Positions 31,686 to 36,252 of a stretch of DNA of 36,252 nucleotides are shown here, piece after piece. The notes below the pieces were generated by a model. It did no database searches and was not told the DNA's origin. It saw only the letters and a program-made list of their open reading frames with translations. The stretch lies in IMG/VR virus record IMGVR_UViG_3300028177_000014, positions 1 through 36,252 of that record; one strand, given 5' to 3'. Source of the stretch: a virus. Each line of letters starts with the position of its first letter. Within the stretch, counting starts at the first letter, position 1. The translations under genes and the position numbers were made by a program.

Positions 31686-31937
31686 TCAAAACCTTAAAGC
31701 TAGTCCTCTTGATTCTATCAAAAGATATCGCGCATTCCATACCCCCTTTTCAAAACCCGCCCACCTTTTTAATTCTTCCAGAATTTGATTGCATTGGCAA
31801 ACGGCGCCGCAAAGAGCAAGAGAAAGGACCGCCCAAAGAGATTTGAAAAGAATCCCCTTTTCGGGTTGGAGATACCCGCACAAGTAAACGGTTTGGACAA
31901 CAACGGCAATGACTAGAATCCATTCACTAGCCCTCAT
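31686..31937 (-). CDS. Small two-pass membrane protein (lysis cluster)
   Basis: 83 residues. Two hydrophobic segments, at about 5-22 (WILVIAVVVQTVYLCGYL) and 32-50 (LWAVLSLALCGAVCQC), then a basic cytoplasmic-type tail. The ATG overlaps the stop of the receiver-domain gene as ATGA. Size and topology fit a class II holin or an antiholin, and it is the last gene of the lysis group, but no family signature is visible. Confidence 0.6.
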   Translation of the reverse strand: MRASEWILVIAVVVQTVYLCGYLQPEKGILFKSLWAVLSLALCGAVCQCNQILEELKRWAGFEKGVWNARYLLIESRGLALRF

Positions 31938-32590
31938 TTCTTTACAGATGGAATAAATGCTTTTCCAGCCGCCCCCACAAATGCACCGATCTTTTCATAC
32001 CAAGTTGTCTTTGTGTGAACCTGATCAAACTTTTCAGTGAGGGAACCAACTTGTTTTACCAGGGTATCCAACCCGGCTTTCACCGTCCCAATTTCAGTTT
32101 TGAATTCGCTTCTGAGTTCCATGATATCTTGCTCAACCGATGAAACCCTTGTGTTGGTTTGATTCCTTTCTATCAGCATGAAAGCTTTCTCTTTCAACTC
32201 TTCAAACCCTGGTTCCTTCAAAGCAAACTCTATTCCCTCCGCTTCCGCAAGAACCCGCGCTTCGTTGTGACCTGACATTAAAACAAAAGGATATGATCTT
32301 TGTTCGTTGAATCTTAGCCATAACGAAAAACCAATGCCGGGATGATCGCGGGTAAGCACATTCGCTGGAAGCGAACCGGGAAGAAGATCATCACACATGA
32401 TCAAAGCAATATTATTTGTTTTGGCGGCTCGCATTGCTTGGGAAATTGAACCGTGAATTTCTTGTCTCAACCAAGGCCATCTTGATTTCAATGCAGGGAT
32501 AACGGTTTCTTCAACAAGGCTTGCGTCCCCTTGGCTATCATCCACAATTAAAATTCGGTAATGTTTCGGGCGTTCTTCTGTATCTGTCAC
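31934..32590 (-). CDS. Response-regulator receiver-domain protein with coiled coil
   Basis: 218 residues from a GTG at 32590 that overlaps the endolysin stop as GTGA (a TTG at 32596 is an alternative). Residues of about 10-140 are a receiver (CheY-like) domain: acidic pair D17/D18 in ILIVDDSQGD, phospho-acceptor D67 in IMCDDLLPG (followed by P four residues on), S106 in FVLMSGHN, and K125 in FALKEPGF. All conserved positions are filled. No output DNA-binding domain follows; instead a coiled coil of about 50 residues (VEQDIMELRSEFKTEIG, then VKQVGSLTEKF) and an amphipathic end. It could sense a host phosphorelay and time lysis, or titrate host phosphate. Confidence 0.85.
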   Translation of the reverse strand: MTDTEERPKHYRILIVDDSQGDASLVEETVIPALKSRWPWLRQEIHGSISQAMRAAKTNNIALIMCDDLLPGSLPANVLTRDHPGIGFSLWLRFNEQRSYPFVLMSGHNEARVLAEAEGIEFALKEPGFEELKEKAFMLIERNQTNTRVSSVEQDIMELRSEFKTEIGTVKAGLDTLVKQVGSLTEKFDQVHTKTTWYEKIGAFVGAAGKAFIPSVKK

Positions 32591-33174
32591 GGCCAATAGT
32601 CCAATCTACGTTCCCAGGAAAGAAAGAACCTTTGTGCAAGAATTGCTTTTCCATCCTTTTCCATCAAATGATACCGCTTCCGATAGTATCGAATTCTAAG
32701 ATCATCCAAGGTTTTTGCAACCTCCAATTCATCAAAGAATTGCAATACGAACTTAAGGCGGTAAATAGTGTCAAGATTCTTTCCGGGCATTTCCAGCGCC
32801 TTATCAAGACGGTGATTGAATCGATTGCAAAGCCGGGCAAGGTATCGCCATGAACGGGCGCGGCCAACATTAACCGCGAAATCAAAGAAGCTTTCCGCAA
32901 GTTTCTGATTTTGAATGTATGCCGCCGGTGAACCGCTCCAATATTTTTCCCGGTAGATTTGCGCGGCTTGCCCAAAGGTCAACTTGTCAATCTGGTCCGG
33001 ATCAACAATCCCGAATTCTCCCAGGCGCCGGCGGTTGAATTCATAAGCAATCCCGAAGTTGGTATGAAAACCATCCGCAAAATATAATCCCGTCTTCCCG
33101 TCGGCCGGAAAAACCCCTTCGTTTTCCATTGTCTTTGAAAGGGCTTCCGCAAAGTAATCAAAGTTTTTATCCAT
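32587..33174 (-). CDS. GH108-type muramidase endolysin
   Basis: 195 residues from the ATG at 33174, which overlaps the previous stop; GGAG stands upstream. ENEGVFPADGKTG--FADGFHTNFGI is a variant of the GH108 motif (EGG..D.GG.TN.GI), with E19 as the likely catalytic acid. The C-terminal half has ESFFDFAVNVGRARSWRYLARLCNR, typical of the peptidoglycan-binding part of this family. It cuts the glycan backbone of the cell wall. No signal peptide or anchor is present, so export would need a holin, and several candidates lie upstream. Conservation of GG is poor, but the family call is good. Confidence 0.85.
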   Translation of the reverse strand: MDKNFDYFAEALSKTMENEGVFPADGKTGLYFADGFHTNFGIAYEFNRRRLGEFGIVDPDQIDKLTFGQAAQIYREKYWSGSPAAYIQNQKLAESFFDFAVNVGRARSWRYLARLCNRFNHRLDKALEMPGKNLDTIYRLKFVLQFFDELEVAKTLDDLRIRYYRKRYHLMEKDGKAILAQRFFLSWERRLDYWP

Positions 33175-33610
33175 TGTCTTTGTTCTCCAGCTGTCCCAAT
33201 GAAGCTTGAACCTGGAAATCGGTTTCAATTTCTCGGCCGACACTGGAAGAAGTTTCTTTAACCTCATATTTTACATTGGAATCATCTTCCAAAGAGGTAA
33301 ACCACTTCCGGATCCGGTCCCTGTACTCTTCGGGAATCGTTTCATCAAACAATAAATCTTCCTTGGCCTCTTGGATAACATCAACTGATTTCTTGTGAAC
33401 CCTTTCTACGGATCCAACCAGGATATCGGAAAACAAGGACAGCTCTTCCCGGCCCTGGATCTCTTCTATCAACTTCTTTCGAAGAACACCAACGGCCGCA
33501 ATCAAGGCGGTCCCAATTACCGCGCCAACCGGAACAACAACTTCCGTCCACATGAAATCAACAACGGCAATCCAATCTATCTGAAGTGCAACCCACTCTA
33601 AAAGTTCCAT
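33167..33610 (-). CDS. Holin-like membrane protein with cytoplasmic tail
   Basis: 147 residues from the ATG at 33610, overlapping the upstream stop as TAATG. One clear membrane segment at about 27-47 (EVVVPVGAVIGTALIAAVGVL), with a weaker hydrophobic helix before it, then a long charged helical tail (IQEAKEDLLFDETIPEEYRDRIRKW). This resembles LLH-type phage holins, which sit directly before the endolysin as here. Role inferred from shape and position. Confidence 0.6.
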   Translation of the reverse strand: MELLEWVALQIDWIAVVDFMWTEVVVPVGAVIGTALIAAVGVLRKKLIEEIQGREELSLFSDILVGSVERVHKKSVDVIQEAKEDLLFDETIPEEYRDRIRKWFTSLEDDSNVKYEVKETSSSVGREIETDFQVQASLGQLENKDNG

Positions 33611-33714
33611 TATTTCCTCTTCATCCAATGCTCGACCCAGGCGAAGGCGAGAATCACCAAAAGCAAAAGAACACTTCCAACAATTTCTTCCATCACGGTA
33701 TCAAGAAAGTTCAT
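33610..33714 (-). CDS. Tiny single-pass membrane protein (34 residues)
   Basis: Begins MNFLDTVMEEIVGSVLLLLV and ends AFAWVEHWMKRK: one membrane helix with an acidic front and basic end. The ATG overlaps the upstream stop (ATGA) and its stop overlaps the next start (TAATG), which supports it as a real coupled gene. A longer frame from 33855 lies in the neighbour and is unlikely. It could be a holin, antiholin or pinholin-type peptide. Confidence 0.55.
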   Translation of the reverse strand: MNFLDTVMEEIVGSVLLLLVILAFAWVEHWMKRK

Positions 33715-33947
33715 CGCCCAGGCTCCAAAGTTGATTGGATATCTGAGCAATTTTCGCCCCAAAAAGCGCTTGTGAATGTTGGAGTTTCGGCGGCCGTACA
33801 TTGGCGGACCTTTGAACCTGGGCGCCCCCCCTTCCAACAAGCACAGTTTTTGCAAACCATCGTCTTGAATAGATTGCGCGCCCGATCTTCGCCGGCTTTA
33901 ATCACTGTGTACGGGTCAACAATTAGGTCCACCGGAAATCTCTTCAT
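33711..33947 (-). CDS. Small cysteine-containing protein
   Basis: 78 residues, coupled on both sides by overlapping starts and stops. The middle has CKNCACWKGGRPG and, later, two more single cysteines (QCTAAE and ENCSD), giving five in all, enough for a zinc or disulfide site. Basic overall, no membrane segment. Not recognised. Confidence 0.55.
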   Translation of the reverse strand: MKRFPVDLIVDPYTVIKAGEDRARNLFKTMVCKNCACWKGGRPGSKVRQCTAAETPTFTSAFWGENCSDIQSTLEPGR

Positions 33948-34288
33948 TAGAAACTTTCTGGATCCCCAAGTTCTTCTTCCGGAAGAGTGTCACCATGTAA
34001 GATCTCGGCAATTTGATCATCTGTTAGTTCCTGATCCCTCATGTAACTTTCCGCCCTGGCTAACATAGATTGCAATTGGAAGATATATTTCCCCAGGCGC
34101 TTAACTTCCAGGTATAACCCTTCCGCCCGTTGCTTATATTCTCTAAGTTTTTCGCGGACTTCCCGCGCTACCCAGTAGCGGCCGAACCCCTCAATGATTA
34201 TTGAAACCGCGTTATCCTTTACATCATGAAAGGATCGCTTGAAAGGGTTCCTGATTTCATCCCAAATTTGTTTCCATCGGCTAGCCAT
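33947..34288 (-). CDS. Hypothetical helical protein, 113 residues
   Basis: Mostly charged helix: WKQIWDEIRNPFKRSFHDVKD at the start, then VREKLREYKQRAEGLYLEVKRLGKYIFQLQSML as a coiled coil, and an acidic end (GDTLPEEELGDPESF). No membrane segment. It is located between two small membrane proteins of the lysis group; its stop overlaps the next ATG. Function unknown. Confidence 0.6.
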   Translation of the reverse strand: MASRWKQIWDEIRNPFKRSFHDVKDNAVSIIIEGFGRYWVAREVREKLREYKQRAEGLYLEVKRLGKYIFQLQSMLARAESYMRDQELTDDQIAEILHGDTLPEEELGDPESF

Positions 34289-34289
34289 A

Positions 34290-34550
34290 TCAACCCCGCT
34301 CTATGTAAAAAGTTTTGGTTCGTTTGCGAAGGATCCAACACGAAATAATCCAGGCGATCAATGCCAACGCCGCGGAATCTCCGCCTTCAACATGAAAGAT
34401 TGAATCCGATACCAAGAACCCGGCGAAGATCCAACAATAGAAATGAAATGTTTCCGCGTGTTTGTAGTCTCTTTCTTGAAAGTTCACATAAATAAGAAAG
34501 CCACCTATGAGAATAGAGACTATAGAAAAGAAAGCGTTGAAACAATGCAA
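34290..34550 (-). CDS. Three-segment membrane protein, holin candidate (TTG start)
   Basis: 86 residues. No ATG is available; a TTG at 34550 is preceded seven bases upstream by AGGGG and gives a sensible protein. Hydrophobic segments at about 5-22 (NAFFSIVSILIGGFLIYV), 38-53 (YCWIFAGFLVSDSIF) and 59-74 (AALALIAWIISCWIL), then a basic end. Three short membrane segments and position at the head of the lysis group fit a class I holin. A rare start codon could help keep its level low. Confidence 0.6.
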   Translation of the reverse strand: MHCFNAFFSIVSILIGGFLIYVNFQERDYKHAETFHFYCWIFAGFLVSDSIFHVEGGDSAALALIAWIISCWILRKRTKTFYIERG

Positions 34551-34606: not shown

Positions 34607-36252
34607 TTACCGCCCGGCTTCCAAGTTTTTGATTCTTGTGGAAAGATTCTTGATCATCGCGCCCATCTTCTTCAACTCGCGCTCGGATTCTCGTTCTTTG
34701 GCAAGTTGGCGGTTGCGCCTGGAAGCGGCCGCGGGATCAATGTTGATATAAACTCTTTCATCATGAAGCATGAACCCGATATTCTGTCCGTCTTTTGTCA
34801 TGATCTTCCGGCCGGTGATCCGGCATTGCTCAAGATCTACAGGAACATGACCCATCATTCCAACAAGAACCGGGAATTCTGCATTCTCTTTGATTCCGCC
34901 GTTGGCCTTGAATCCAGCGCCCGAACTTGCGATTCCAACCAGGGGATCCCCCTTCTGATATTTCCGAACCATCCCCGTTTGGATATTCAATCCAACAATA
35001 TCTTTTTGGCTTATGGAGCCATCGGAATAAAAGTATTCCGCGTAATCTCCATTAGTTCCATTGTGAGCATCCGCGTAAACTTCACCCTCCGTCATAGCGT
35101 CTTCGCAATCGGTGTTATCTGCACCAACGCAAAGAGCAACTTCCATGAAGTATGCTGTGTCCGCCTGGGATCTTGTTATTTGTGTTGAAGGGTTGCCGCC
35201 TCGAAAACCAAAAGAACCACTTCCGGATAATTTCAAATGGACCCCGCCGGGTATTGCGGAATCATCCCCAACCAATTCATTATTATAGCCGCCGGCAATA
35301 GTGCTCGCTTCCGCATCAACCGAATTGCTTTCCCCTCCGCCAATGGTTGAACTTCCCGCCGTTCCGGTGACGGTGTTGGAGCTTCCGCCGCTTATGGTGT
35401 TGTCTTGATTGGATCCGGAAATTCCATTGTTTCTACCGCCGGCAATCACGCTAAAGTCTGCGCCATAATTTGAAACCGAATTATTATATCCGCCACCAAT
35501 AAAGGAATGCGTTGAAATTGTTGAATTGCTGGTTCCTCCAACAATTGCGGAATAGACGCCTTCTGCAATTACACCATTGGAGCCAACGGAATTTGAGGAT
35601 CCACCAACCAAAACCGTTCCCGTTGATCTGGCCGTATTGTTCACCCCGCCACCAATAAAAACATAGTAAGCGGTTGTTGCTGTGTTCTCAACTGTCGAAT
35701 TGTAGCCGCCAAGAACCGTATTATAATACCCTTCAACGAAATGAGATGACCCGCCAAGAGTGATGGAGTAATCAGAATTATAATCAATTTCATTTGAGGA
35801 TCCGCCGGCAATTATTGAATAATTTGATCGCACCTTGTTTGATGCCCCCCCAAGAATCGTTGAATAGCTTCCATCGAAAATAGAAGAGGCGCCGCCAAAG
35901 ATTCGGGTTGCTGTAAGATTTGCGATTGTCCCCAGGCTTGTAATATATGGTTGTGCGCCGGTTGCTATCGTTCCATTCACTGTTCCGAAATCCCCGGTTG
36001 TTGCTGTGACTCTTCCCAGGGATCCAACGGAAGTTACATTTGGTTGTGCAGAAGTATTCAATGTACCAGTGATCCCGCTATTTGCATCAAGGGTTGTGAA
36101 TTGTCCGGAAGATCTTGTTGCGGATCCAATGGCCGTATTGTCCATTGTTCCGCCGTCGATGTTAGCGGTGTTAGCATTCAATGAAGTAAGGGTTCCCAGG
36201 GAAGTAACATTTCCTTGTGCGGCGGTTTGCAAAGTCCCTGTTAAGCTGACCC
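34607..36252 (-). CDS. Tail fibre protein, C-terminal part (gene begins at 1972)
   Basis: This is the rest of the fibre gene that starts at 1972 and crosses the map origin. The codon split over the junction reads GGG, giving FDGVSLTGTLQTAAQ, which matches the repeat FDG...TGTLQTAAQ seen before it. Residues of about 778-1009 of the joined protein are short repeats of the form S-IIGGSSN-V, resembling the left-handed beta-roll heads of YadA-type trimeric adhesins. A DYAEYF segment at about 1057-1159 resembles the Peptidase_G2-type fibre tip domain, which in some phages cuts itself after trimerisation; I cannot confirm that activity here. The last 38 residues are a charged helix suited to a trimeric coiled coil. 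Membrane and lysis genes follow 56 bases downstream. An apparent start at 36232 is a TTG leucine inside the repeat, not a real start. Confidence 0.85.
   Translation of the reverse strand, partial: VSLTGTLQTAAQGNVTSLGTLTSLNANTANIDGGTMDNTAIGSATRSSGQFTTLDANSGITGTLNTSAQPNVTSVGSLGRVTATTGDFGTVNGTIATGAQPYITSLGTIANLTATRIFGGASSIFDGSYSTILGGASNKVRSNYSIIAGGSSNEIDYNSDYSITLGGSSHFVEGYYNTVLGGYNSTVENTATTAYYVFIGGGVNNTARSTGTVLVGGSSNSVGSNGVIAEGVYSAIVGGTSNSTISTHSFIGGGYNNSVSNYGADFSVIAGGRNNGISGSNQDNTISGGSSNTVTGTAGSSTIGGGESNSVDAEASTIAGGYNNELVGDDSAIPGGVHLKLSGSGSFGFRGGNPSTQITRSQADTAYFMEVALCVGADNTDCEDAMTEGEVYADAHNGTNGDYAEYFYSDGSISQKDIVGLNIQTGMVRKYQKGDPLVGIASSGAGFKANGGIKENAEFPVLVGMMGHVPVDLEQCRITGRKIMTKDGQNIGFMLHDERVYINIDPAAASRRNRQLAKERESERELKKMGAMIKNLSTRIKNLEAGR

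Follow-up and report, generated by a model that had tools for sequence, protein, structure and literature searches.

Single-domain receivers that lack an output domain are known phosphate sinks, and the clocks known to time phage lysis are holin accumulation, antiholins and superinfection signals. For alphaproteobacterial phages a CtrA-dependent "lytic deferment" was proposed, lysis being synchronised with a host response regulator (PMC9437464). Receivers carried by phages themselves have been described from Alteromonas phages: R8W gp48 was presented as PhoB-like, an auxiliary metabolic gene for low phosphate (PMC8228385), and V22 gp30 and A5 gp11 as CheY-like auxiliary metabolic genes of the host-recognition module (PMC7289586; PMC10579305). 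It is only under the labels "PhoB" or "CheY-like" auxiliary metabolic gene that these three receivers appear in papers, and a limited literature search, with subscription journals mostly outside it, found none linking phage receivers to lysis clusters.

The locus considered here is P0001, the receiver gene of the 36,252-nt contig IMGVR_UViG_3300028177_000014 (the window, that is, the whole stretch of viral DNA analysed). In lytic deferment a host regulator acts on phage promoters (PMC9437464), whereas P0001 is a phage-encoded receiver without a DNA-binding domain. The single-domain regulators of the Rcp1 type (PDB 1i3c, 1jlk, 1k68) are its best pairwise match and share its active-site residues; unlike them, P0001 is phage-borne, is only 23–28% identical, and carries extra residues behind strand 3 as well as a coiled coil in its C-terminal part. 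The CheY-like proteins of Alteromonas phages (V22 gp30, A5 gp11, R8W gp48, H4/4 gp44, R9Y1 gp12, XX1924 and PB15) are output-less receivers like P0001, and like it they lie in or beside lysis genes with a coiled coil adjoining, the Alteromonas partner being of membrane type. They are, however, stand-alone proteins, probably of another clade, whose coiled coil is a separate gene, while P0001 holds its coiled coil in the same protein. Finally, the XhlA or "hemolysin" proteins (phrog_937), found directly upstream of the XX1924 and PB15 receivers, also carry a coiled coil, followed by a hydrophobic C-terminus, near lysis genes; in contrast, the C-terminal half of P0001 has no match to the XhlA and hemolysin families in Pfam or PHROGs, and its tail is weakly hydrophobic. 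The features of the locus are the following, given in gene order:

34607–36250, minus strand: C-terminal part of a tail-fibre-like gene, directly upstream of the cluster and in frame with 1978–2 if the contig is circular
34290–34550, minus strand: 86-aa protein holding two hydrophobic stretches; only its shape resembles a holin
33947–34288, minus strand: 113-aa helical protein between the tail gene and the lysis genes, without significant family match
33167–33628, minus strand: 153-aa protein with an N-terminal transmembrane segment and then a helical part, overlapping the endolysin start, without family match
32587–33174, minus strand: GH108 endolysin, from an ATG at 33174 (alternative ATG at 33267), overlapping the P0001 start
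31934–32590, minus strand: receiver protein P0001, 218 aa from a GTG, consisting of a receiver domain, a coiled coil and a short, basic, weakly hydrophobic C-terminus
32150–32560, minus strand: receiver domain of P0001, residues 13–149 (220-aa numbering), the AF2-modelled stretch, with D19/D20, D69, S108 and K127
32006–32161, minus strand: predicted coiled coil of P0001, residues ~146–197, heptad pattern 8/8
31937–32005, minus strand: C-terminal tail of P0001, ..TTWYEKIGAFVGAAGKAFIPSVKK, weakly hydrophobic or amphipathic, basic at its end and not hydrophobic enough for a transmembrane helix
31686–31937, minus strand: 83-aa protein, likewise with two hydrophobic segments and holin-like in shape alone, sharing an ATGA overlap with P0001

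The genes of the locus run from the tail-fibre-like gene through small membrane and helical proteins to the endolysin, P0001 and the 83-aa protein, whose gene closes the late operon, a convergent gene block lying beyond. The endolysin is recognised by Pfam PF05838 (4.7e-11, 43.5 bits for a cut-off of 21.2) and by the endolysin family phrog_315 (7.1e-14), while the small membrane proteins of the contig have no holin family match in Pfam or PHROGs. The initial annotation had placed a receiver gene at 31934–32590, overlapping the endolysin stop within a lysis cluster and in a contig that encodes no histidine kinase. These coordinates are correct, and the strand, which it did not give, is minus. 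The GTG start at 32590 sits within the endolysin stop (..CCGTGACAG.., a GTGA overlap), the 3′ end of P0001 shares its ATGA with the 83-aa membrane protein gene, and the placement among lysis genes is supported. Neither a histidine-kinase ATPase domain nor an integrase was found in the contig. Codon usage at the locus favours only the P0001 frame, in which a second start candidate, a TTG at 32596, would give 220 aa, and Rfam has no match in the region. Residues are numbered here on the 220-aa form, so that D19/D20, D69, S108 and K127 are the D17/D18, D67, S106 and K125 of the initial annotation.

As to the genome itself, the terminases closest to that of the contig are only ~38% identical. The contig ends (1–1978 and 34607–36252) make up one repeat-rich tail-fibre-like gene which, once joined, is in frame over ~1,207 aa with a single terminal stop; since both ends fall in one gene and in the same frame, the genome may be nearly complete, circularly permuted and about 36 kb long.

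Searches of Pfam, PHROGs, NCBIfam and PDB sequences with P0001 give no receiver match, and the Pfam receiver model PF00072 misses the protein as well. Curated models being blind to P0001, the motif-based call of a receiver required a real test. A profile of 67 diverse receivers, built without P0001 and without any sequence retrieved using it, scores P0001 at 21.2 bits, when the best of 5000 shuffles reaches 7.6 and the runner-up among the 235 ORFs of the window only 1.6 bits. Comparison with receivers by hhalign gives 96.9% and a score of 58 over residues 9–146 (300 shuffles remain at or below 31% and 24.8). Among the receivers tried in pairwise Smith-Waterman alignments, Rcp1 is the best for P0001 (z 5.7, with 0/1000 shuffles as good). 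A single-sequence search of ten bacterial genomes returns a receiver as its top match (E 0.003), aligned end-to-end with the active-site residues in register, and extending the search to 398 genomes brought no closer match. Two narrower profiles did not separate P0001 from its shuffles, whereas the broader ones did: 3/2000 shuffles reached its score with an eight-sequence profile drawn mostly from the Alteromonas set, and 3/3000 were as high with an Rcp-only profile. No close relatives of P0001 were detected in IMG/VR, GTDB genomes, phages or plasmids.

Structural modelling points the same way. When full-length P0001 was aligned with MAFFT, strand 3 came out misplaced, and this alignment was therefore left out of the modelling. 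With an alignment as input, AF2 models the receiver domain at pLDDT 69 and pTM 0.65, its elements in receiver order but strand 2 unformed, and nearly all top Foldseek matches of this model in the PDB are receivers, Rcp1 included (TM 0.57–0.67); V22 gp30 ranks second among the viral matches. The structure prediction that the initial annotation had proposed as a check thus leads to receivers, but since the input alignment itself held receivers, the model is supportive and not independent evidence. The single-sequence model is poor, and only the long helix at the coiled coil reaches a pLDDT of ~70–84. All five residues put forward earlier as receiver key residues, that is the D19/D20 acid pair, D69, S108 and K127, do align with the catalytic columns of the receiver active site, and the claim of a coiled coil rests on the heptad pattern and the modelled helix. 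The initial observation is confirmed: P0001 has a divergent but intact receiver domain of the CheY/Rcp1 type, then a coiled coil, and lacks an output domain. It carries ~10 additional residues between strand 3 and helix 3, and the best 17-residue hydropathy of its tail is 1.11, versus 2.8 in the XhlA-like protein of XX1924.

Receivers are as uncommon in phages as had been claimed: with CheY as tblastn query, 134 of 50,697 phage records match, and many of those look like bacterial DNA. When phage receivers were added to the queries over the same records, genuine-phage matches were few and many matches fell in unannotated host-like contigs. Three candidates were set aside. The match in Pseudomonas phage Komp_PAO1_1 falls opposite an annotated ORF; Stenotrophomonas phage Bhz63 has a full-length regulator distant from the lysis genes; and the full-length regulator of MW462191 lies amid bacterial-type genes. 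Six PHROGs labelled "unknown function" (731, 5982, 37855, 20458, 22245 and 8810) match receiver domains.

Twelve Alteromonas phage records match the receiver queries. At least five genome types of Alteromonas phage carry the stand-alone receivers; the lysis genes of these phages encode a GH108 or M15 endolysin, a holin and Rz/Rz1 spanins, and in all nine of the phages examined the receiver is within or directly beside the lysis genes. Immediately upstream of the receiver, every lineage examined also encodes a small protein that combines a coiled coil and a hydrophobic segment. The gene orders are:

Foturviruses R8W and H4/4: tail fibre, holin (phrog_1356), transmembrane coiled coil, receiver, membrane protein, terminase
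R9Y type, also in IMG/VR contigs: transmembrane coiled coil, receiver, GH108 endolysin, small protein
XX1924 and PB15: XhlA-like coiled coil with transmembrane segment, receiver, DUF5675 or M15 endolysin, holin with three transmembrane segments
V22, A5 and two IMG/VR contigs: coiled-coil protein that begins with a short hydrophobic stretch, receiver, Rz-like spanin, holin-like gene, with lysin genes near
N4-like V19 and R22Y: coiled coil, receiver and, next to them on the opposite strand, convergent lysis-like genes

A search for receivers next to GH108 lysins, suggested at the outset, was therefore positive, in the phages of the R9Y type. R8W gp48 (L012:3013-3474) is a 153-aa protein with a single receiver at 4–115 and no DNA-binding domain, near the holin gene. 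In V22, A5 and the two contigs grouped with them the end of the receiver overlaps the Rz-like spanin, and an Rz1-like ORF is present in the two contigs. The acid pair, phospho-Asp, Ser and Lys are intact in all Alteromonas lineages but V19/R22Y, where the phospho-Asp, Ser/Thr and Lys are all lost while the acid pair and the adjoining coiled-coil gene are kept (L017:3498-3950, L026:3501-3965). In the case of P0001, the position directly upstream is taken by the GH108 endolysin gene, and no separate coiled-coil membrane gene stands there. The same two elements, receiver and coiled coil, nevertheless recur in unrelated phages, and their union in one protein suggests, by the fusion argument, that both act together in the other phages.

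The partner proteins and their surroundings call for a few remarks. The coiled-coil partners of R8W and R9Y1 (L012:2720-3016, L015:3139-3504) have a common C-terminal motif, RLxxLxMHLxNQR, a possible candidate for a receiver-binding site. Seven comparisons of the P0001 coiled coil with Alteromonas partner proteins were made, and the best was reached by 2/500 heptad-keeping shuffles, a similarity too weak to establish homology. V22 gp28 (L027:9960-10370), whose gene closely precedes those of the coiled coil and the receiver, weakly matches permuted papain-like (C92) amidases and may be a lysin. DUF5675 proteins (phrog_1501, function unassigned) recur near holins (L016:2438-2836, L017:4527-4922, L027:12829-13236), and those of these lysis regions may be lytic enzymes.

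A tree of 73 receivers unites the twelve lysis receivers of Alteromonas phages in one group (support 94/80) and leaves P0001 outside; the latter joins the Rcp1-type receivers, at the end of a very long branch (3.99). That phages of different families share a single receiver clade points to exchange of one module among them, and the exclusion of P0001 from it suggests a separate recruitment. P0001 and the Alteromonas receivers were thus probably recruited independently, although forcing them into one group is 13.3 log units worse with an AU p of 0.21, so that a single clade is unrejected.

Taken with receiver homology, an intact active site, coupled genes and the recurrence of receivers next to coiled-coil membrane proteins in the lysis clusters of unrelated phages, these data allow P0001 to be read, with a probability just short of even, as a receiver adaptor of the lysis cluster through which the phosphorylation state of the host would influence the lysis machinery in the membrane. 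Translated together with the endolysin and a small membrane protein, P0001 would form dimers by way of the coiled coil, close to the inner membrane, and be phosphorylated on D69 by either a host histidine kinase or a small phosphodonor. The receiver surface would then be altered and its contact with a membrane partner, either a holin-like protein or a transmembrane coiled-coil protein, would change, which would help to set when or whether lysis fires. Proximity to lysis genes does not prove a lysis role. That the active site is intact speaks for a function involving phosphorylation.

An intact active site is also consistent with a decoy, a phosphate sink that in late infection drains phosphoryl groups from a host histidine kinase and blocks a host stress or envelope response, with the position among lysis genes reflecting late expression only. 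Such a role is known for output-less single-domain receivers and is consistent with a contig that encodes no kinase, but it leaves unexplained both the membrane-type coiled-coil neighbour immediately upstream in every Alteromonas lineage examined and the survival of V19/R22Y receivers without a phospho-site; we consider it unlikely, though the strongest of the alternatives. V19 and R22Y do show that receiver proteins of such clusters can persist without phosphorylation, which would then not be essential in every one of them. Their receivers, having lost Asp, Ser/Thr and Lys yet staying beside the coiled-coil gene, argue for a non-signalling structural adaptor, whose receiver fold would dock the membrane coiled coil to lysis proteins with no phosphorylation involved, and the long insertion beside the phospho-site of P0001, modelled with low confidence, fits this too. 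Yet P0001 keeps 5/5 catalytic positions despite its extreme divergence (branch length 3.99), as do the Alteromonas lineages other than V19/R22Y keep theirs, and a purely structural role is accordingly doubtful, ranking just below the sink. That these receivers are auxiliary metabolic genes, tuning host metabolism under low phosphate or chemotaxis in a CheY/PhoB-like manner unrelated to lysis, as the R8W, V22 and A5 relatives were labelled (PMC8228385; PMC7289586; PMC10579305), is improbable given that all these proteins lack a DNA-binding output domain and that their genes lie in or beside lysis clusters, those of V22 and A5 even overlapping the Rz-like spanin.

If the lysis-adaptor reading of P0001 is extended to the other phages, a receiver able to be phosphorylated would have been placed beneath a membrane coiled coil in the lysis clusters of tailed phages at least twice independently, giving a "lysis response regulator" through which the two-component phosphorylation state of the host sets the time of cell opening; this wider proposal is possible but speculative, and less probable than the reading of P0001 itself. 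If true, the lysis-cluster receiver would be a direct link from host two-component signalling to lysis time, and the "PhoB" and "CheY-like" auxiliary metabolic genes would need reinterpretation. Cultivated Alteromonas phages with such genes (R8W, R9Y1, V22, A5 and PB15) make the idea testable at once. The comparison as a whole suggests that the coupling of a host-type phosphorylation switch to the genes for cell opening has arisen in phages on more than one occasion.
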